64,000 bases of DNA from Fibrobacter sp. UWH6. GTDB lineage: Bacteria; Fibrobacterota; Fibrobacteria; Fibrobacterales; Fibrobacteraceae. Of this stretch, positions 4,574 to 56,095 are shown piece after piece. The first letter of the stretch is position 1; every line of letters starts with the position of its first letter. The translations under genes were made by a program, and so were the position numbers. The notes under the pieces are model-generated. The model saw only the letters and a program-made list of their open reading frames with translations. It made no database searches and was not told the origin of the DNA. The stretch covers positions 1 to 64,000 of the forward strand of contig NZ_FRAX01000006.1 in assembly GCF_900142465.1 (NCBI RefSeq). The letters run 5' to 3'.

Positions 4574-6343
4574 ATGATGAACAATAAGATGATTACGGCT
4601 TTGGTCCTGGCAGGTGGTGTTGCCTCCTGGGCCCAGCTGCTTTACGAAAAACCTGTTGACGAAAAGGTTGATCGCGTTTCTTTGGAACGTCCTTCCCGCA
4701 TGGGAGAGAGCGTGAAGAAATTCGTGGATACCCAGAAGGCTTCTAAAAAGGTTAAGAAGGTTTCTGTGAAATCTGACCTTTTGGGCCGCAGCCGCAATAG
4801 CACGCTCACTTATGAAGTCGACGTGGCTTCTCAGCAGAAAATGAAGGTTTTGGTCAACGATGTCATGGTTGAACATGCCAGCCTTGAAACTGAATCGGGT
4901 TCTTTTGATTACAGCGCCTCTGCCGATTCCAAGAACTACGAACTGAACGGCGTAAAAATGTCCGAATCGCAGTTCCAGAAAAAGGCTGACAACAGTCGCA
5001 AGAAACTTCGCAAGAACAGAAGGAAGTTTAAGGCCCCTCGTGTAGAGTACATGACTGCAAGTGAAATTGAACAGGAAATTTCTTCGAACGAGAACGTTTA
5101 TGTTTCCGAATATAAAGGCGTGAAGTATGATGGTCTCGATTTTGGCGAAGACACCTATCTGGAAGACTTCTATATCCGCACTAAGTCTGGTATTGATACT
5201 TACGCCTGGAATAAGGGCTACTATGGCCAGGGTGTGGGTATTTACTATAGCGAAGGTGGTTGCGTTCCCGATAACTATGTAAACCACAATTACTTTACGC
5301 AGATGAATAACTGCCCCAACGGCGTTTCTAGCCATGCAATTGGTGTGGCCCGTGTTCTGCAGTCTTCTACCGGCGAATCTCACATTTATGGATCTGCTGA
5401 GGTTATTTATCCCGAGGATCCCGATAAGTATCCTGTACCTATTTATATCGGTTCCCAGTCTTGGGGCTATGTGTACGATTACCCCTATTATTGCTCCGCT
5501 GACGCCATCATGGATAACTACATCTATGAATATGGTGTAGCCCAGTTCGTTGCTGCAGGAAACGATTACCGCTATTCCTATGTGTCGACTCCTGCAAGAT
5601 CTATGAATGCTGTGGCTGTTGGAGCCGTTTCTCCCATCGATTACAAGTACATGGTCTATTCTTCCTCTAGAAATGGATATGCCCATAATGATAAGCCTGA
5701 AGTGGCCAACTTTACCAACTTCTATTTCCGCAGGGATCTTCATTACAGTGACGAGAATGGATCTTACAATGGCCGATTCAATGGAACCAGTGCTGCAACC
5801 CCTTATACGGCAGGCATGGCTGCACTCCTGTTGTCTAAGTACCCGTCTTTGAAATGGCATCCTGAAATGCTGAAGGCGGTAATGTTGGTGGGAAGTACTC
5901 GTGATGTGGGCAATACGGACTATGATTATGATGGCATCGGAACATTCAAGGCTGGCATTCCCATGCTTGACAGGCTGACTACTTCTCCCTTGTTCAAGAA
6001 TCGGTACTGGTATGGTGCGAACAACACCAATTTTGACAAAAATGGAAGAATCAGTTTTACTGAATCTAATATTCAGAAGGGCAAGCGTTACCGTGCCGCT
6101 ATTTCATGGCTGTCTTCGGGTGAGTACGTGATGAATAATCAGAGACTCCCTCAGGATATTGACCTGGTGATCAGGCAGAATGGGACAATCATCGCTTCGT
6201 CTGCTTCGTCGTACAATCCCTTTGAGTTGGTTGATTTTGTTGCTCCCAACTCTGGCGAAATCGAGGTGGTCATTACCCGCTATAGAAACAGCTCTGCATC
6301 CGAAAACGTGAAGCTTGGCTTTAGCATTCTGCAGGTGGACTAA
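4574..6343 (+). CDS. Secreted subtilisin-like (S8) serine protease with Glu in place of the triad Asp
   Basis: About 589 residues with a signal peptide (KMITALVLAGGVASWAQ), a basic pro-like region to about residue 170, then an S8 domain. His254 lies in SSHAIGVARV, the oxyanion Asn in VAAGND, and Ser406 in NGTSAATPYTAGMAALL. The first catalytic position, normally Asp in V-I-D-T-G, reads GVGIYYSEGG, so Glu227 aligns where Asp belongs. The last 110 residues form a beta-rich domain resembling pre-peptidase or P-type domains. The ATG at 4574 is preferred over 4568 because AGGAG ends at 4567. It stands alone, ends in a strong terminator, and probably acts outside the cell. The catalytic variant makes the exact subfamily uncertain. 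Confidence 0.85.
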   Translation: MMNNKMITALVLAGGVASWAQLLYEKPVDEKVDRVSLERPSRMGESVKKFVDTQKASKKVKKVSVKSDLLGRSRNSTLTYEVDVASQQKMKVLVNDVMVEHASLETESGSFDYSASADSKNYELNGVKMSESQFQKKADNSRKKLRKNRRKFKAPRVEYMTASEIEQEISSNENVYVSEYKGVKYDGLDFGEDTYLEDFYIRTKSGIDTYAWNKGYYGQGVGIYYSEGGCVPDNYVNHNYFTQMNNCPNGVSSHAIGVARVLQSSTGESHIYGSAEVIYPEDPDKYPVPIYIGSQSWGYVYDYPYYCSADAIMDNYIYEYGVAQFVAAGNDYRYSYVSTPARSMNAVAVGAVSPIDYKYMVYSSSRNGYAHNDKPEVANFTNFYFRRDLHYSDENGSYNGRFNGTSAATPYTAGMAALLLSKYPSLKWHPEMLKAVMLVGSTRDVGNTDYDYDGIGTFKAGIPMLDRLTTSPLFKNRYWYGANNTNFDKNGRISFTESNIQKGKRYRAAISWLSSGEYVMNNQRLPQDIDLVIRQNGTIIASSASSYNPFELVDFVAPNSGEIEVVITRYRNSSASENVKLGFSILQVD

Positions 6344-6449: not shown

Positions 6450-7487
6450 TTAGGGCTCGTCTGCGAATGGGTCGGGAATGTCGAAGTACTGATCGGTTTC
6501 CTTGCTTTCGACGCAGCGTACGGGTGTCCAGATTTCTCGATCCTGACTGATGATGCTTGCCTTGTCGGAATCGTTTTGCAGAAGGAGAACAGTTAACTCG
6601 TGGTTGTCTTCGTAATCGCTAGAAAGAATGACTCCCTTTATTCCCTGGTCGTAATAACGTGTGCGGAATTCCTTGGCGTCGTGGTCGTAATGGTAGGGGT
6701 CTGCCAAACCTGTGGCGAACATGGAAAATCCCAGGAGGTCTGTGGCGGGGGAGGCATTGTCGTCGGGTGTCCAGCTGGTTGTTGCCTTCAGGTTCATTCC
6801 GGCCTGATTTGCGCCGCCGGCGATTTCAATCAATTCGGCGAAGTCGTTCTTGTTGGGCAAACGCCAACCTTTGGGGCAGATGCCGCGAATGGCACCCTGG
6901 GCCTCGCAGTAGTTGTCGGTGCCGCATCTTCTTCCGTTGGAACTGAAGACGGCCGAAGAGTCCATGGCCGTGCCCAGAGAGTAGAAACGTCCGAATTTAG
7001 CGCAATTCTCTTCGTCATTGTTGGGACAGGAGTTGCCGTAATTGTCGTTGAAATTGTAATTCAGGTTCTGGGCCATCCAGTTGGTGGTCCCGATTTTAAC
7101 CGTCTTGTACGTCTGATTATCGCGGGTATCGATCAAGACGCCTGTTTCAAAAGGCTGTTCGCTGGAAGAGCTGATGTCTTCGCTGGAAGAAGAAATTTCT
7201 TCGCTAGAAGATGAAATGTCTTCGCTGGAGGAAGATTCCGGTTCGTCAGAGGAACTGGAAGTTTCTTCGGAAGAACTGGAAACCTTTTCTGAAGAACTGG
7301 ATTTTTCTTTAGAAGAACTGGAAGTGTCCTTGGAAGAGCTGGACGAGGGCTGATCTTTGCTTGTGGAGGACTGAATTTCGCTGGTGCTGGAGGCGGGATC
7401 GTCTTCCGGGCTGGTGGAATCGTTACCGCAGGCGCATAACGTGAGCGCGATTGCCGAAGCAACCAATTTGAAGATTTTCTTGTTCAT
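6450..7487 (-). CDS. FISUMP-domain lipoprotein (Fibrobacter major paralogous domain)
   Basis: 345 residues. Signal peptide MNKKIFKLVASAIALTLCAC with a probable lipobox Cys near residue 20, then a long Ser-rich linker of SSSS plus acidic/Lys repeats (about residues 25-110), then one Fib_succ_major domain. The domain shows its usual blocks: DTRDNQTYKTVKIGTTNWMA, QNLNY, GRFYSL, GICPKGWRLPNKNDF and PVRCV at the end. Function is unknown; by family it is a surface lipoprotein with a fold related to C-type-lectin or formylglycine-generating domains. The start at 7485-7487 is chosen over the longer frame because TAGGAG precedes it. Confidence 0.9.
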   Translation of the reverse strand: MNKKIFKLVASAIALTLCACGNDSTSPEDDPASSTSEIQSSTSKDQPSSSSSKDTSSSSKEKSSSSEKVSSSSEETSSSSDEPESSSSEDISSSSEEISSSSEDISSSSEQPFETGVLIDTRDNQTYKTVKIGTTNWMAQNLNYNFNDNYGNSCPNNDEENCAKFGRFYSLGTAMDSSAVFSSNGRRCGTDNYCEAQGAIRGICPKGWRLPNKNDFAELIEIAGGANQAGMNLKATTSWTPDDNASPATDLLGFSMFATGLADPYHYDHDAKEFRTRYYDQGIKGVILSSDYEDNHELTVLLLQNDSDKASIISQDREIWTPVRCVESKETDQYFDIPDPFADEP

Positions 7488-7700: not shown

Positions 7701-9821
7701 TTAATAGATAAAAAGCATTTCACGATACTTGGGCAGCGGCCACTGTTCATCGGAGATGATGCCTTCCAGCTTGTCCACAACCTTGCGGAGGGAGACCATA
7801 GCTTCCAGCTTCAGCTGATGCTTGCCGGCGATAGCCTTTTCCATGACGGCGATTTCTTCGACGAGAGCCTTGTAGCCTTCGGCCAGTTCCTTAGCGTAGG
7901 AATCGACGGAAACCAGACCCTGGTTGATTGCCATTTCGTTCACCTTCAGGGCTTCGGAGTAAGCCTTCACGACCTGCGGGAGGACGATGCTCTTGGCCAT
8001 GTCGTAAGCGACCTTGGCTTCGATGTCGACGCGCTTGTGGTAGTCTTCCAGGTTGACTTCGTAGCGGGATTCAAGTTCCACCTTGTTGAACACGCCGTAC
8101 TTCTTGAAGAGAGCAACGTTTTCCTTCTTGGTGAGAGCGGAAAGTGCTTCCATGGTGGTACGGATGTTGGGGAGACCGCGCTTTTCTGCTTCAGCAACCC
8201 ATTCGTCGGTGTAGCCGTTACCGTTGAAGATAACGCGCTTGTGTTCCTTGATGATGGACTGCAGGAGCTTCTGGAGTTCCTTGTGGAAGTTGGCCTTGGA
8301 GACCTTTTCCATCTTGTCGGCGATCATGTCGAATGCTTCGGCAACGATGGTGTTCAGGATAACGTTGGGTTCAGAGCAGGACTGGCTAGAACCCGGTGCA
8401 CGGAATTCGAACTTGTTGCCAGTGAATGCGAACGGGGAAGTACGGTTACGGTCGGTAGCGTCGCGGGGGAGCGGCGGCAGGATGTCGGAACCGAGCTTCA
8501 TGGCACCGCCCTGCTTGCTGGACTTGGGTTCACCCTTTTCCAGCTGTTCGACGACGTCAGCAAGCTGGTCGCCGAGGTACATGGAGATGATTGCCGGAGG
8601 AGCTTCGTTAGCACCGAGACGATGGTCGTTGCCTGCGCCAGAAACGGACATTCTCAGCAAGTCGGCGTGGGTGTCAACTGCATAGACAACAGCGCAGAGG
8701 GTGGTGAGGAAGATTGCGTTCTGGTGAGGATCCTTACCCGGGTTCAAGAGGTTGGTCTTACCGTAGTTCACGGACCAGTTGTTGTGCTTACCGGAACCGT
8801 TGATGCCTGCAAACGGCTTTTCGTGGAGGAGGCAAACAAGGCCGTTGCGATCAGCGACGTTACGGAGCACTTCCATAATCTGCATGTTGTGGTCGCAAGC
8901 CAGGTTCACTTCTTCGAACATGGGTGCAAGTTCGAACTGGGCAGGAGCCACTTCGTTATGACGGGTCTTAGCCGGAATGCCAAGCTTCCACAGTTCGTCT
9001 TCAACTTCGTTCATGAAGTTCAAGATGCGAGCCGGGATAGAACCGAAGTAGTGGTCTTCCATCTGCTGGTGCTTAGCGGAAGCAGCACCGAAGAGGGTGC
9101 GGCCAGCCTGGTAAAGGTCCGGGCGCTGGAGGTAGAACTTCTTGTCTACCAGGAAGTATTCCTGTTCTGCACCGAGAGTAACGGTGACCTTCTGCTTTTC
9201 AACGCCGAAGAGACCCATGAGACGGTCGGCAGACTTCTGGAGGGCCTGGATAGAGCGGAGAAGCGGAGTCTTCTTATCGAGAGCTTCGCCAGTGTAAGAG
9301 CAGAATGCGGTAGGAATGCAAAGAGTTGCACCGTTACCGTGACGCTTGATGAAAGCGGGAGAAGTCGGATCCCAAGCGGTGTAGCCACGAGCTTCGAAAG
9401 TGGAACGGATGCCGCCGGAGGGGAAGGAGGATGCGTCCGGTTCACCAACGATCAGGTTCTTGCCGGAGAAAGCCATGATAGCCTTGTCGCCTTCCGGTTC
9501 CAGGAAGGAGTCGTGCTTTTCTGCGGTAGAGCCGGTGAGGGGCTGGAACCAGTGAGTAAAGTGAGTTGCGCCGCGGTCCATTGCCCACTTCTTCATGGCG
9601 TGAGCCACTTCGCCAGCGATGCTGGGGTCAAGTGCTACGCCATTTTCGATGGTAGCGAAAAGCTTCTTGCAAACATCCTTGGGGAGGTATGCCTTCATGG
9701 CTTCGGAGTTGAATACGTCCTCGCCGTAAAAGTCAACGTTTGCCGGGCTTGCAGCCATGATGCCTGCTGCCGGTGCTTCTGCAATTTCGGTAATTGCATT
9801 CATTCTATACTGGTTGCTCAT
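7701..9821 (-). CDS. glnN: Type III glutamine synthetase
   Basis: Makes glutamine from glutamate, ammonia and ATP. At 706 residues it is far longer than GSI (about 470) and fits GSIII. GSIII features are visible: the N-terminal FGVD-lacking block with [35 protein letters not shown], then [32 protein letters not shown], the ATP region [13 protein letters not shown], and [27 protein letters not shown] precedes the ATG. The gene is divergent from gltB, with a perfect sigma-54 promoter 38 bases upstream and shared palindromic sites, so the GS-GOGAT cycle appears co-regulated. No GSI or P-II gene is in the window. Confidence 0.97.
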
Positions 9822-14772: not shown

Positions 14773-14914
14773 TTTAAAGCTTATAGGATAAAGTTTAAAG
14801 GTTGAAGGAGTTTCTTTAACCTTTAAACTTTCCGCTTTACGCTAAATAGAACTTTCCGCTTTACACTACTTTAACCTTTAACCTTTCCGCTTTACGCTAA
14901 ATAAGGAACATTAT
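14773..14914. repeat. gltB-gltD spacer with hairpin and repeated CTTTCCGCTTTACGCTAAA units
   Basis: A perfect 14-bp inverted repeat AAAGTTTAAAGGTT (14790-14803) / AACCTTTAAACTTT (14818-14831) is followed by three copies of a unit close to CTTTCCGCTTTACGCTAAA up to the gltD start. The same unit recurs after gltD (16256-16320). There is no T-run directly after the stem, so it is more likely a processing or stability element than a terminator. Confidence 0.7.
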
Positions 14915-16255
14915 ATGGCATTAGTACAGAGAATCCAGGACGTGTACCGCCCCGTAGAAGAACGCGTTAAGGACTTGAAGGAAGTTGAACGCCTCTTCAC
15001 AGAAGAAGAAATTAAGGCACAGGCAGGCCGCTGTGCTGATTGCGGCATCCCTTTCTGCCATGGTGCAGGCTGCCCTCTGGGTAACCTGATTCCCGAATTT
15101 AATACCGCCGTAGCTGCAGGCGACATCCGCAAGGGCTACGACATTATCAGCAAGACTGCTTTCTTCCCGGAATTCACGGGCCGTGTTTGCCCCGCCCTCT
15201 GCGAAGCTAGCTGCACCCGCCAATTGAACGATGACGCCGTCATGGTTCGCCAGGTGGAAAAGTTTATGATCGAAACCGCCTTCAAGGAAGGCTGGGTGGA
15301 ACTGCCCGAAGCTGCTCCCAACGGCAAGACGGTGGCTGTGATCGGTTCTGGTCCTGCAGGCCTCTTTGCTGCAGAAAGCCTCCGCCGCAAGGGTTACGCA
15401 GTAACCGTCTACGAAAAGAAGCCCAAGGTTGGCGGCCTCCTCCGTTACGGCATTCCTAACTGGAAGCTGGAAAAGGAAGTCATCGACCGTCGCGTTTCCC
15501 TCATGGAAAAGGCTGGCATCAAGTTTGTCTGCAATTGCGAAATCGGCAAGGACATTTCTGCTGAATACATCCGCAAGAATTTCGATTACCTGTTCCTGGC
15601 TATCGGTACTCCCAACGCTCGCGATTTGAACATTCCTGGACGCGATGCAGAAGGTATCTACCTGGCTCTGGACTTCCTTCATGGTGAAGGTGAAAAGTAT
15701 AATGCCAAGGGCAAGAAGGTCTTGATCATTGGCGGTGGCGACACCGGTAACGACTGCGTGGGCAAATCCCTCCGTGAAGGCTGCAAGAGCGTTCTCCAGG
15801 TGGAATTCATGCCCAAGCCTCCTGAAGAACGTTCCCCGTCTACTCCGTGGCCGGATTGGCCGTACATGCTGCGCACCAGCTATGCTCACCACGAAGGTGG
15901 CGAACGTCGCTGGAATGTGTCTTCCAAGCAGTTCATTGTGAAGGACGGCAAGGTGGCTGGCGTGGAAGCTGTGAAGGTTGAATGGGAAATGGCTCCCAAC
16001 GGTCGTCCCATCAAGCCTAATGAAGTTCCCAATTCTACAGAAATCATTGACGCTGATTTGGTGGTTCTGGCTATGGGCTTTACCGGCGTTCCGGCTGAAG
16101 GTATTGTGAAGGACCTGGGCCTTGAATTGACTCCGCGTACTGCAATCATTCAGGATCCGTCCCGCAACATCTACGCTGTAGGTGACTGCGCTAACGGAGC
16201 TAGCCTGGTTGTAAGAGCCATGGCCGACGCAAAGGCAAAGGTCAAGAGCTTATAG
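14915..16255 (+). CDS. gltD: Glutamate synthase small (NADPH-oxidising) subunit
   Basis: Feeds electrons from NAD(P)H through FAD and 4Fe-4S clusters to GltB. 446 residues. An N-terminal ferredoxin-like region has the cysteine groups RCADCGIPFCHGAGCP and CPALCEASC. The FAD-binding fold starts near residue 140 (VAVIGSGPAGLFAAE) and the NAD(P)H-binding fold near 270 (VLIIGGGDTGNDCVG), then the terminal FAD contact IYAVGDCANG. AAGGAA lies before the ATG. It is second in the gltBD operon and is followed by the same repeat found upstream and a good terminator at 16340. A second, more distant GltD-like protein is encoded at 60922-62379. Confidence 0.97.
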   Translation: MALVQRIQDVYRPVEERVKDLKEVERLFTEEEIKAQAGRCADCGIPFCHGAGCPLGNLIPEFNTAVAAGDIRKGYDIISKTAFFPEFTGRVCPALCEASCTRQLNDDAVMVRQVEKFMIETAFKEGWVELPEAAPNGKTVAVIGSGPAGLFAAESLRRKGYAVTVYEKKPKVGGLLRYGIPNWKLEKEVIDRRVSLMEKAGIKFVCNCEIGKDISAEYIRKNFDYLFLAIGTPNARDLNIPGRDAEGIYLALDFLHGEGEKYNAKGKKVLIIGGGDTGNDCVGKSLREGCKSVLQVEFMPKPPEERSPSTPWPDWPYMLRTSYAHHEGGERRWNVSSKQFIVKDGKVAGVEAVKVEWEMAPNGRPIKPNEVPNSTEIIDADLVVLAMGFTGVPAEGIVKDLGLELTPRTAIIQDPSRNIYAVGDCANGASLVVRAMADAKAKVKSL

Positions 16256-16320
16256 GATAAAGGTTAAAGGATAAAGGGTAATGTCTTTACGCTTTAAACT
16301 TTCCGCTTTACGCTAAAAGA
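16256..16320. repeat. Second copy of the gltBD hairpin repeat
   Basis: AAAGGTTAAAGGATAAAG followed by CTTTAAACTTTCCGCTTTACGCTAAA-like sequence, the same parts and order as the gltB-gltD spacer but less symmetrical. Confidence 0.6.
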
Positions 16321-20202: not shown

Positions 20203-20322
20203 CAAAGTAAACAGTGGTTAGTTGACAGTTCTTTTTTAGAGTGGCGAGCTGGTGCTCGCAAAAAAGATAAGGGCTTCGCCCGTTCACTAACCACTAACCA
20301 CTAATCACTAACCACTTTTATT
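20203..20322. repeat. Composite hairpin repeat between dapF and dapL
   Basis: A left arm (AGTGGTTAGTTGACAGT), then small palindromes (GCGAGCTGGTGCTCGC and GGGCTTCGCCC), then a right arm of tandem CACTAAC heptamers complementary to the left arm. It ends eight bases before the dapL ATG. Other members of this family lie at 33055, 34130, 46380, 55150 and 55800. Confidence 0.65.
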
Positions 20323-21531
20323 ATGAACGAATCTATCATTAATCCATTTTACGATCGTCTTCCTGGCAGCTACCTTTTCTCTACTATCGCCAAGAAGATC
20401 AAGGAATACCAGGGCACCCACGCCAATGCCGACATTATCCGTCTGGGTATCGGCGACGTGACCACTCCCATTATCCCTGCCGCTATTGAAGCCATGCACA
20501 AGGCCGTAGACGAAATGGCATGCAAGAACACCTTCCGCGGTTACGGTCCGGAACAGGGTTATGACTTTTTGCGCGAAGCCATCATTCGCGGCGAATATAC
20601 TCCCCGCGGTGTCGAAATGGATCCGGACGATGTGTTCGTCAGTGACGGTTCCAAGTGCGACGTGGCCAACATCCAGGAACTTTTTGCTGCCGACGTGAAG
20701 ATCGCCATTCCCGATCCGGTTTATCCTGTTTACCTGGATTCCAACGTGATGGCTGGCCGTACCGGCTTTATGCAGGAAGATGGCCACTTCTCCGAAGTGA
20801 CTTACCTGGCTTCTACCGCCGAAAACAACTTCCAGCCGGACCTTCCCAAGAACCCGGTGCAGCTGATTTACCTGTGCAGCCCCAACAACCCGACGGGCAC
20901 CGTGCTTAGTCGCGAAACCCTCCAGAAGTTCGTGGATTACGCCAACGAAACCGGTGCCATCATCCTCTTCGATGGTGCTTACAACTGCTACATCCAGGAT
21001 GAATCCCTGCCTCACTCCATTTATGAAATTCCGGGTGCCCGCACCTGCGCCATTGAATTCCGCAGCTTCAGTAAGACTGCTGGCTTTACCGGCGTCCGTT
21101 GCGCCTACACCATCGTTCCTCACGAACTGGGCAAGCTCCGCGCCATGTGGAATCGCCGCCAGTGCACCAAGTTTAACGGTGTGAACTACGTTGTGCAGCG
21201 CGCTGCCGAATCCATCTACAGCCCCGTAGGTTGGGAACAGACCAAGGCTGTGATCAAGGGCTACATGGATACCGCTTTCATGATCCGCTCTGAATTGACT
21301 GCTGCCGGCTACACCGTCTTTGGTGGCGAACATGCTCCCTACATCTGGTGGAAACTTGAAAACGGCGAAAAGTCCTTCGACTTCTTCGATCGCCTCCTTG
21401 GCACTTGCGAAGTGGTGGGTACTCCGGGTAGTGGCTTTGGCCCCTGCGGCGAAGGTTATTTCCGCTTGACCGCCTTCGGTGACCACGAACAGACCAAGGT
21501 TGCCCTGAAGCGTATTAAGGAAAAATTGTAA
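20323..21531 (+). CDS. dapL: LL-diaminopimelate aminotransferase
   Basis: Converts tetrahydrodipicolinate to LL-diaminopimelate in one step with glutamate as amino donor, bypassing the succinylase route. 402 residues, PLP-dependent fold type I. Family marks: FSTIAKKIKEYQ, IIRLGIGDVTTP, TFRGYGPEQGYDFLREAI, DGSKCDVANIQ, YLCSPNNPTG, and the PLP lysine Lys251 in SFSKTAGFTGVRC. No clear Shine-Dalgarno: the ATG directly follows the composite repeat. Use of glutamate links it to the GS-GOGAT genes around it. Confidence 0.96.
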   Translation: MNESIINPFYDRLPGSYLFSTIAKKIKEYQGTHANADIIRLGIGDVTTPIIPAAIEAMHKAVDEMACKNTFRGYGPEQGYDFLREAIIRGEYTPRGVEMDPDDVFVSDGSKCDVANIQELFAADVKIAIPDPVYPVYLDSNVMAGRTGFMQEDGHFSEVTYLASTAENNFQPDLPKNPVQLIYLCSPNNPTGTVLSRETLQKFVDYANETGAIILFDGAYNCYIQDESLPHSIYEIPGARTCAIEFRSFSKTAGFTGVRCAYTIVPHELGKLRAMWNRRQCTKFNGVNYVVQRAAESIYSPVGWEQTKAVIKGYMDTAFMIRSELTAAGYTVFGGEHAPYIWWKLENGEKSFDFFDRLLGTCEVVGTPGSGFGPCGEGYFRLTAFGDHEQTKVALKRIKEKL

Positions 21532-21534
21532 AAA

Positions 21535-21551
21535 TTAGCACGGAATTTGCA
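21535..21551 (+). promoter_or_regulatory. Imperfect sigma-54 promoter before the activator gene
   Basis: TTAGCACGGAATTTGCA keeps CACG and TTTGCA and the correct 10-base spacing, but has AG where the -24 GG should be. It begins four bases after the dapL stop. Confidence 0.5.
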
Positions 21552-21576
21552 AAATCCTATGTAGAATTTGTGAAAA

Positions 21577-21595
21577 TTTTACATTTCATGCAAAA
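21577..21595. promoter_or_regulatory. Palindromic site in the activator leader
   Basis: TTTTAC-N7-GCAAAA, one mismatch from the perfect palindrome. It lies downstream of the -24/-12-like element and 103 bases before the ATG, a position that would suit autorepression. Confidence 0.5.
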
Positions 21596-21697
21596 TCGAA
21601 TGTATTTTGTAAAGGATTCTTATAAGGATTGCTGACAGGCCCCGCAATTTTTATAAAAACAAGAGTGCCTGAAAAAGACCCGAACCTAGAGACTATT

Positions 21698-33054: not shown

Positions 33055-33140
33055 TCCTCATACCTCATACCTCATAGCTCATACCTCATATCTCATACCT
33101 CATACCACATACCACATACCACATACCTCATAACTGGTAT
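33055..33140. repeat. Tandem CATACCTCATA-type repeat array
   Basis: About twelve imperfect tandem units of 7-10 bases built on CATACCTCATA and CATACCACATA. No spacers, so it is not a CRISPR. It is a single-armed relative of the composite hairpin repeats. Confidence 0.7.
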
Positions 33141-34129: not shown

Positions 34130-34300
34130 GGTTAGTAATGAGTGATGAACTGCGAGTGATGAGCAGTGAGCTAAAAGTAAGGCGCCTTTGGCGCGACTAT
34201 AAAAAACTCATAGCTCACAACTGAAAACTCACCGCTGGTAAGGGCGCTCTTGGCCCAACAATGATAACTCATAACTCATATTTGGTTTCTGATATCTTGA
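34130..34300. repeat. Composite hairpin repeat between the MoxR and DUF58 genes
   Basis: A left arm of GATGA/GTGAG units, a GGCGCCTTTGGCGCG palindromic core, and a right arm of CTCATAGCTCAC-like units complementary to the left arm. The core recurs at about 46350 and 55850. Confidence 0.65.
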
Positions 34301-34305
34301 TTTGC

Positions 34306-34350
34306 TAGATCCTTCGACTTCGTCGCTTTGCGACTACGCTCAGGATGACA
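34306..34350. repeat. Dispersed GATCCTTCG...CTCAGGATGACA repeat
   Basis: TAGATCCTTCGACTTCG and ACGCTCAGGATGACA flank a small GTCGCTTTGCGAC hairpin. Same family as the copy in the carB leader. Confidence 0.7.
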
Positions 34351-34404
34351 CTCTCCCCTTCCTACCACCTACCACCTACCGTCTACTTCCTACTTCCTAC
34401 TCCC

Positions 34405-46289: not shown

Positions 46290-46440
46290 ACTGTCATTCT
46301 GAACTTGTTTCAGAATCCCGTGAACGCACAAGATCCTGAGATTCCTCAGGGTGACGTCAGGTCCCTTTGGCGCGATTATCTAGCTCATTGCTCAAGGCTC
46401 ATAGCTCATCGCTGAAAGGAGCCGTAGGCGACCACCTCAT
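46290..46440. repeat. Mixed dispersed repeats upstream of the membrane protein gene
   Basis: A degenerate GATCCTGAG...CTCAGGGTGAC palindrome (46297-46352), the CCTTTGGCGCGATTAT core, then tandem CTCATAGCTCAT units and GGAGCCGTAGGCG. Same building blocks as at 34130 and 55150. Confidence 0.6.
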
Positions 46441-47066: not shown

Positions 47067-47364
47067 AATTTATCTAAACCCTTCGCCAACAATGATAGAA
47101 AAATCAGTTGTCTTAATTATGAATTACGAAATATGAATTACGAGTTTTTAAAATCAGTCGCAAACACCCCTTTTGGCCCCTTTTTTCCCTCTTTTCTCTC
47201 GTTTCCCGTCTTTCGTCTCTCTTTTTTTTACCTATATTATCCCTCAACGTCATTTCGCCTTGGTATTCCCGTCCAGTTATATTCCACTGGGAGTTCAAGT
47301 AGAATACTCGGGTGCAAACGTGTAAATAAGTAAAACAAACAAACCAAAAGGAACAGGTAGTAAA
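47067..47364. other. Divergent intergenic region before rpsO
   Basis: Contains tandem GAATTACGA-like units (47118-47150), a pyrimidine-rich stretch (47170-47235) and the rpsO leader with AAAAGGAACAGG. I see no recognisable S15 autoregulatory structure by eye. Confidence 0.4.
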
Positions 47365-55062: not shown

Positions 55063-55247
55063 TAGGCAAAGAGGTCGGTCGGCTTCGCCTTCCTTTGAGG
55101 TATGAGGTCGACCTTGCAAAAAAGGCCAGGTGAAAACCTGGCTTTTTTTAGTTATGAGATATGAGTTGTGATTATGAGATATCTAGTTCAAAGGAGCCGA
55201 AGGCTCCGCCCTCGTACCTGTCGCCTGAAGCCTGTCGCCTCATACCT
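55063..55247. repeat. Repeats flanking the serA terminator
   Basis: A GAGGTCGG...CTTTGAGG hairpin before the terminator, and afterwards TTATGAGATATGAG-type tandem units, a GGAGCCGAAGGCTCC palindrome and CCTGTCGCCT repeats up to the pseudogene. Confidence 0.6.
55125..55149 (+). terminator. Terminator of serA
   Basis: GCCAGGT (55125-55131) and ACCTGGC (55136-55142) around GAAA, followed by seven T. Confidence 0.9.
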
Positions 55248-55797
55248 CTACTTAAACTGTATGGTTGCCTTTTTGTCGGTGACCTTTATAGAAACCTTTG
55301 CTCCCAGGTATAGCGGCCAGTTGGCGGTGTCGTGGCCAGAGCTGATGCCGTAAACGATGGGGATCTCAAGATCTCCAAAATACTTTTGGATGATTTCTTC
55401 GATGGAAAGAATAGAGTTGGTGGCGTTCAGGTCGAGAATCCTTGTTGAAGCCTTTCATCATGGGTCCTTGGATAGTTTCGAAACCAAGGTTGTTCAATGC
55501 AATGTGGAAGGCGGTAATGTCGCTATAGCCCACGAACCATTTGGGGTGCTTTTCAAGCTTTGAGTAGTTGAGCTTGTTCAGAAGCTGGCTGCTGCCGTAG
55601 CCCCCGCGTGCAAAGAAAATGGCCTTGACGCTCTTGTTGTCAATAAGGGCTTGCATGGCGTCTGCGCGTTCGTCCAGAGTTCCCGAGTAGCGTCCTTCCT
55701 CTGCGCTTGAATACAGGTTGCTGGCCTCGATTACCGTTAAGCCCCAGCTCTTAAGTGTTGTACTCGTTTGTGATGTACTCGTTGGTAACGTATTCGT
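55248..55797 (-). pseudogene. Decayed LD-carboxypeptidase (S66 family)
   Basis: The minus-strand frame ending at 55366 contains AIFFARGGYGSSQLLNKLN and PKWFVGYSDITAFHIAL (nucleophile Ser in GYSD), diagnostic of LD-carboxypeptidase. After GPMMKGFNK the frame must shift to recover LDLNATNSILSIEEIIQKYF and YGISSGHDTANWPLYLGAKV, the C-terminal His motif, ending at 55248. The usual central segment with the catalytic Glu (about 100 residues) is missing. Upstream, coding sequence from about KSWGLTVIEASNLY runs into tandem ACGAGTACA repeats with no start codon. Truncated, internally deleted and frameshifted: not functional. Confidence 0.8.
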
Positions 55798-56095
55798 TAT
55801 TTGTAATATTTAGATATGAGTTATGAGCTTTGAGCTTTGAGTTAAAGTTAGGCGCCTTTCACTGTTCACTATTCATTGTTCACTAATCCAGTTAGAAGTC
55901 CCACGTCAAACGTCCAATAACTCATATCTAGTATCTAGATCCTGCTCCTTCGAACCTAAGAATTGTAAGGCAATAAATTGCTAATAATTCTATATCGACT
56001 ACGGCCTTACATGCCTTCGCTCAGGATGATACCTCAAGCCTCGCGCCTCGAGTCTTTCCGCTCGCAGCACACAGCTCGCTGCTCATCGCTCTCCG
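55798..56095. repeat. Repeat-rich intergenic region
   Basis: Tandem GAGTTATGAGCTTTGAG units, the TTAGGCGCCTTTCACTG core, ACTGTTCACTATTCATTG units, and a split GATCCTGCTCCTTCGA...CTTCGCTCAGGATGAT repeat. No gene. Confidence 0.6.

Follow-up and report, generated by a model that had tools for sequence, protein, structure and literature searches.

Hairpins between genes of the window

The 64,000-nucleotide stretch analyzed here (the window) lies within a 3.92-Mb, 50-contig assembly of Fibrobacter, a rumen and gut bacterium, and carries short tandem arrays of 7-bp units in the gaps between its protein genes, some of them paired as the arms of hairpins (Table 1). Genes were called with a home-made, codon-based caller and named from Pfam matches, namely DAP epimerase (dapF), aminotransferase I/II, MoxR AAA, DUF58, GcpE (ispG), and 2-hydroxyacid dehydrogenase. 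From its family and neighborhood, we infer the aminotransferase I/II gene to be dapL, and the 2-hydroxyacid dehydrogenase gene is probably serA. The complementary arms in the dapF-dapL spacer span positions 20206-20229 and 20286-20309, around a GC-rich palindrome.

A sequence-only reading had described complementary arms around changing palindromic cores at five sites (20203, 34130, 46380, 55150, and 55800). The three cores that it quoted are real, each present once (at 20244, 34181, and 55193), its units CACTAAC, CTCATAG, and CATACCT were found at the sites, and 5/5 sites lie in intergenic gaps as it had stated. Complementary arms are present at three of the sites (RNA fold z = -3.9 for 20203-20322, -3.0 for 34130-34278, and -3.0 for 55805-55940, the last with the distant partner included) and missing from the other two. 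Of the two arms, 46380 has the right (C) array only, without a left partner (z = -0.65), and at 55150 the unit family of the TATGAGA array on the left is not that of the CCTGTCG array on the right (z = -0.86). The pair at 55800 exists, but not with the adjacent TTCACTG array (z = +0.28); the true partner lies ~90 nt further on. Three elements had been missed: the strongest hairpin of the window (14775-14843, z = -4.7), a hairpin at 16237-16314 whose G array overlaps the final codons of an ORF called as ending at 16255, and the 11-copy CCTCATA array at 33056-33132.

Table 1. Heptamer arrays, hairpin arms, and cores in the window, by position
Feature	Position	Strand	Basis
Strongest hairpin, left arm (TTTAAAG family)	14775..14807	+	complementarity
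Two right arrays CTTTAAC / CTTTCCG, each complementary to the TTTAAAG-family left arm	14814..14894	+	complementarity
G array then C array (AAAGGTT / CTTTACG)	16237..16314	+	TRF
dapF-dapL spacer, left (G-bearing) arm AGTAAACAGTGGTTAGTTGACAGT	20206..20229	+	best complementary partner of right array
dapF-dapL spacer, GC core palindrome GCGAGCTGGTGCTCGC between a T-run and an A-run	20244..20259	+	exact match, single occurrence
dapF-dapL spacer, right (C) arm CACTAAC x4.6, its end 6 nt upstream of the dapL start codon	20285..20316	+	TRF
Solo C array CCTCATA x11, upstream of moxR	33056..33132	+	TRF
moxR-DUF58 spacer, left arm	34154..34178	+	complementary to 34206-34230
moxR-DUF58 spacer, core GGCGCCTTTGGCGCG, then ACTAT	34181..34195	+	exact match, single occurrence
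moxR-DUF58 spacer, right arm ACTCATAGCTCACAACTGAAAACTC	34206..34230	+	complementarity
moxR-DUF58 spacer, additional C array ATAACTC	34264..34280	+	TRF
Additional C array CCTACCA / CTTCCTA, upstream of DUF58 gene (start 34468)	34358..34401	+	TRF, gene call
C array TAGCTCA, preceded by decayed GGCGCGATTAT core; no matching left arm	46381..46413	+	TRF; fold z
G array AATTATGAATTACG	47110..47146	+	
G array TATGAGA; adjacent right array not its match	55153..55182	+	TRF
Core GGAGCCGAAGGCTCC	55193..55207	+	exact match, single occurrence
C array CCTGTCG, other unit family than the TATGAGA array	55217..55240	+	TRF
55800 hairpin, left arm TAGATATGAGTTAT	55811..55824	+	complementarity
Nested C array TTCACTG inside the 55800 hairpin, no partner found	55858..55885	+	TRF
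55800 hairpin, right arm ATAACTCATATCTA, perfect partner of left arm, 92 nt loop	55917..55930	+	complementarity

Other palindromic modules (CATTCTGAACTTGTTTCAGAATCC; CCTTCGACT...CGCTCAGGATGACA) occur in intergenic DNA at 46298-46370, 34310-34345, and 55990-56030, in the same spacers as heptamer hairpins, so that those spacers are composite. The window also holds a decayed LD-carboxypeptidase gene (Peptidase_S66, PF02016; 55250-55803, minus strand), which is split between two reading frames with a switch near 55445 and whose upstream end meets a tract of 15-bp repeats (55755-55798) and the hairpin at 55800. A set of 21-bp tandem repeats (7158-7343) lies within an ORF at 6450-7487 (minus strand) and is in frame by length.

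An excess of period-7 arrays in intergenic DNA

The arrays are in excess at a period of 7 and its multiples only. A strict count over the intergenic DNA of 864 kb of the window's genome, at periods 4 to 13, returned 27 period-7 arrays against 0-2 at every other period and none in dinucleotide shuffles, and a lenient count over the examined Fibrobacter DNA as a whole, based on the codon-based caller, returned 308 period-7 arrays against 21-47 at the others. The period of 7-10 bases first proposed therefore narrows to 7, with no excess at periods 8 to 10. Arrays were found throughout the genus, and since the same spectrum recurs in other Fibrobacter genomes, one of them with a 2.1-Mb contig, it is not an assembly effect; an E. 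coli control (50 kb with 3.7 kb of gaps) was too small to mean much. The elements are intergenic and non-coding, fall into several unit classes, and have many more copies in the genome than the sites first described.

It is extremely improbable that these elements are ordinary intrinsic terminators or low-complexity sequence that arose by chance. Some enclosed cores do resemble terminators, with an A-run, a stem, and a T-run (e.g., C3 61485 in the window's own genome), but most of the recurrent cores lack the T-run and have GATTAT there instead, and the absence of the period-7 excess from shuffles and from other periods refutes both ideas for the arrays as such.

Complementary arms with a fixed strand polarity

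Two types of array were recognized, one G-bearing and nearly free of C (TATGAGT, TTAGTGG, TTTAAAG, AGTAGGA) and the other its complement. We sought complementary sequence on both sides of each array, with no pre-selection of arrays for complementarity and with the flanks of other arrays as the null. The upstream partner of C arrays beat 90% of null flanks in 49% of cases and the downstream partner in 3%, and for G arrays it was the downstream partner that did so in 39% and the upstream partner in 3%. Where arrays were neighbors, the G array came first in 32 cases and the C array in none. Among 89 elements chosen for having a complementary partner, 87 had the G arm on the left and the C arm on the right (13/13 in convergent and 10/10 in divergent gaps), although many of the sequences are related and these sign counts are not independent trials. 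Base composition in the same set was strongly skewed (left arm G 0.279 and C 0.065; right arm C 0.290 and G 0.064), with T at 0.31 and A at 0.35 in the left arm.

Each arm is a tandem run of degenerate 7-mers, and the two arms share one family and complement each other, the 5′ arm consisting mostly of A, G, and T and the 3′ arm mostly of A, C, and T; a GC-rich palindrome often lies between them. A core of the type AGGCGCC-ttc-GGCGCGATTAT, followed by a GCGATTAT tail, was counted ~15 times in 1.26 Mb and is found in sister species too, and many hairpins lack it. The first description, of differing arms around a changing core, accordingly holds for the arms, which are the most variable part, and fails for this recurrent core. 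An analysis of pairing from the core outward retained 10 elements after de-duplication, a set too small to interpret. An earlier cross-validation had in-phase shifts pairing about as well as the true register, and when one heptad at a time was left out, the heptad-to-heptad register was slightly better than other in-phase registers (4.92 vs 4.67 of 7). Given so small an effect, we rejected exact mirror-image copying of the arms, which behave like family copies with slight order.

Such loosely ordered family copies are what neutral debris would look like, that is, plain 7-nt slippage tracts made complementary by one ancestral palindrome, with the polarity a by-product of selection at gene edges. 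The polarity does fit gene edges in codirectional and divergent gaps, as a start codon occurs in 0.29 of 3 frames in C-sense arms against 1.26 in G-sense arms, and stops are somewhat commoner in the latter. We nonetheless regard this explanation as quite improbable. The polarity is kept just as strictly in convergent gaps, which have no start codon, so that gene-edge selection alone is insufficient, and plain slippage leaves unexplained how both arms switch family together between species.

Genomic location and RNA folding

Element density was 0.31/kb in codirectional, 0.22/kb in convergent, and 0.09/kb in divergent gaps, where promoters lie, and in codirectional gaps the left arm starts at a median of ~7 nt past the stop codon. 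The mean fold z of the elements was -4.1 versus -1.25 for other gaps, a contrast that is partly circular because the elements were chosen for complementarity. These observations, together with the position of hairpins between housekeeping genes and the terminator-like core that several of them enclose, would suit selected RNA structures, in which a functional intercistronic or terminator-like hairpin conserves its pairing and not its sequence and may serve mRNA stability, processing, or translational coupling, as has been suggested for the STRR (short tandemly repeated repetitive) hairpins of cyanobacteria. On balance we think this unlikely, as many relatives have no element at the same junction, the register is weakly preserved, and no Rfam match was found in the window, where the elements lie between protein genes. 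Sense-strand mismatches numbered 57 G-U versus 92 A-C, and RNA-level selection through G-U wobble is thus unsupported by this test, in which strand composition may confound the count and support is simply absent.

Filled, empty, and re-spelled forms at orthologous junctions

Comparison among relatives for gain and loss, a check that had been proposed along with the first description, revealed filled, empty, and re-spelled forms at orthologous junctions, and the orthologous sites are not conserved in sequence in the way of ordinary untranslated regions. Between dapF and dapL, four relatives (L013, L015, L016, and L019) have a TAATG overlap and no spacer, and others carry CACTAAC, CCTAACC, GGCTCGA, CAATCAT, or ACTCATT-like arrays. 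Between ispG and serA, a short linker without any element is seen in L169, L174, and L175, and hairpins of at least four unit families are seen elsewhere (CACTAAC in L155, L157, and L160; CTACTTC in L168 and L179; CCTAATA in L178 and L180; GAGCCT in L158); the left arm matches the right in each, both having been re-spelled together. Filled and empty forms also alternate among relatives at moxR-DUF58. Fibrobacter species differ in which exact arrays (CTCATAA, CACTAAC, or CTACTTC) are common in them, as heptamer dialects, and for those exact spellings there was no match in the sampled genomes outside the genus.

In a sister species (L001), the dapF-dapL spacer differs from that of the window solely by one extra CACTAAC (+7 bp), the one case where a 7-nt step was seen directly. 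Purifying selection on this 154-bp spacer, which has zero substitutions between the two, was considered and rejected because the same alignment holds another identical stretch that includes coding sequence (21351-21600), which makes recombination equally likely. That stretch, which takes in the dapL end and DNA past it, matches L001 at 100% identity over 250 bp where neighboring coding DNA is ~87% identical, and this suggests a recent recombination between species.

The coexistence of filled and empty sites raises the question of mobile miniature elements (REPIN/MITE-like), of which whole hairpins, or the GC core plus arms, would be copied by a transposase such as RAYT, with the heptamers as internal decoration. 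The recurrence of the tailed core, in sister species too, agrees with this, as do the presence of three Y1_Tnp (PF01797) genes in the window's genome and the sharing of one dialect by neighboring sites within a genome (L168, L180). Even so, mobility appears unlikely to us. The recurrent core is missing from many hairpins and the arms vary between copies, and when filled and empty ispG-serA and moxR-DUF58 sites were compared by eye, no clear target-site duplication was visible and the element replaced the short linker and did not interrupt it. A link to RAYT/REPIN was rejected, as the three Y1_Tnp genes have no flanking heptads and their flanks are unrelated to the heptamer arms. Two of these RAYT-like genes (L149 and L150; C5 and C2 of the same genome) have common flanks with a GGCTA/TAGCC-type palindrome and a TCCTTTGATTTTATTGTGATGCAG... 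motif that L151 has as well, and these flanks look like a separate REP-type family.

Relationship to known heptamer repeats

To our knowledge, cyanobacterial STRR hairpins, noted since 1990, have no accepted origin or role. These 7-bp repeats can form hairpins between genes in filamentous cyanobacteria, and roles in transcript stability or translational coupling have been suggested, as yet untested (PMC2670836, which discusses Mazel 1990 and Jackman & Mulligan 1995). The Fibrobacter elements display the characters by which STRR are recognized (7-bp tandem units, multi-copy intergenic classes, complementary heptamer arms) and resemble them in being hairpin-capable and in occupying gaps that are highly variable among close relatives (PMC2670836). 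They differ in phylum and units, and the dialects, the recurrent GC core, and the G-left/C-right polarity were measured here, in Fibrobacter. A second likeness is to P6b of the Nostoc trnL (UAA) group I intron, a stem of complementary degenerate heptamers (Class I TDNGATT, Class II NNTGAGT) that switches class and keeps its structure (PMC4476775). Its NNTGAGT matches the TGAG/CTCA family of Fibrobacter, and the P6b motifs, with G and no fixed C, are like Fibrobacter left arms, but P6b is one locus in a catalytic intron, whereas the Fibrobacter elements are dispersed between genes and often have a GC core. The resemblance to cyanobacterial tandem heptamers, first noted as one of style, is hence closer than that, given the STRR hairpins (PMC2670836) and the P6b stem (PMC4476775).

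Other repeats share fewer of these features. The TAACTGA repeats known from Beggiatoaceae, Cyanobacteria, and Bacteroidetes (one indirect set beside 169 direct ones, without hairpin arms) are likewise intergenic heptamer arrays, often immediately ahead of start codons and with indels mostly in steps of 7 nt (PMC4679880), but they are direct repeats of a single unit, in contrast to the other units and inverted arrangement in Fibrobacter. The GGGAATC / GGGGA(T/C)T heptamers of Xanthomonas and Nostoc, for which polymerase slippage was proposed, are also intergenic arrays of variable length with some inverted pairs (PMC4692102); unlike the Fibrobacter arrays, their unit forms G-quadruplexes, and inverted pairs are there an example and not the rule. 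REP/REPIN elements with RAYT are likewise GC palindromes scattered between genes, in some cases as composite arrays, but have no heptamer arms, and a RAYT association was not found in Fibrobacter.

We found no earlier report of the Fibrobacter heptamer hairpins in the literature searched, and the text of the F. succinogenes S85 genome paper does not mention such repeats (PMC3079729). Intergenic 7-bp hairpins in cyanobacteria and class-switching heptamer arms in P6b were already known, and what is added here is the polarity, the dialects, and the series of filled and empty junctions. Outside Fibrobacter, period 7 was again the commonest among 60 loci chosen for a DapL relative, a small and unplanned sample. 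A heptamer query against plasmids gave no match, a negative that carries no information given the low-complexity filter of BLAST. Hairpins with G on the left and C on the right were found in Clostridia (L073) and Bacteroides (L075), the former with two near-copies (4836-4985 and 9162-9504) that have a TTAGGG.../...CCCTAA core and a further outer inverted repeat flanking them.

A tentative model of origin and role

We favor, tentatively and with somewhat less than even confidence, the explanation that heptamer-armed hairpins are a genome-wide non-coding class that grows in situ by 7-nt slippage and template switching, is tolerated where inserted, and acts as a weak generic mRNA hairpin. The seeds would be short inverted repeats (GC palindromes or terminator stems), the arms of which would be lengthened by polymerase slippage in 7-nt steps, and the +7-bp difference from L001 fits the slippage put forward for heptamers in bacteria (PMC4692102). 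Once the strand has folded, intrastrand template switching may then re-copy the 3′ arm from the 5′ arm, so that the arms stay in one family. Hairpin arms are both made and mended by template switching, the intrastrand form of which has been invoked for the 5′-G/3′-C excess in RNA stems (PMC8794818), a pairing that it might favor here as well. The polarity in Fibrobacter fits this, but the predicted excess of U-A over A-U was not seen in the left arms, and the register preference is weaker than recent arm-to-arm copying predicts, which is why we offer the step as a hypothesis. Growth in place is also opposed by the shared cores and within-genome dialects, which could also mean copying from site to site.

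Insertion would be tolerated only between coding regions, in the stop-to-start gap, where the polarity would be harmless, the G arms past the stop codon carrying more stops and the C arms ahead of the start codon few starts. Once transcribed, the element would form an intercistronic or 3′-UTR hairpin, most likely a weak generic element of mRNA punctuation or stability and not a specific regulator, a function that we infer, like the generating step. Depletion from divergent gaps and stable folding are compatible with such a generic hairpin. The absence of elements at orthologous junctions, the lack of a G-U excess, and the weak register speak against a regulatory structure that would be indispensable, and the evidence that selection acts tightly on an RNA helix is weak. 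It is conceivable, if doubtful, that strict 5′-G/3′-C heptamer hairpins are self-extending intergenic DNA across phyla, with one process linked to replication (slippage combined with intrastrand template switching, or else an enzyme not yet described) writing a species dialect at stop-to-start junctions.

With ~80 sequenced species, Fibrobacter allows the same junction to be compared empty, filled, and re-spelled, and the combination of a constant architecture with species-specific spelling makes it a clean system for the origin and role of such repeats. The fixed strand polarity is a regularity that any mechanism must explain, and the hairpins in Clostridia and Bacteroidales suggest that the process is not peculiar to cyanobacteria.
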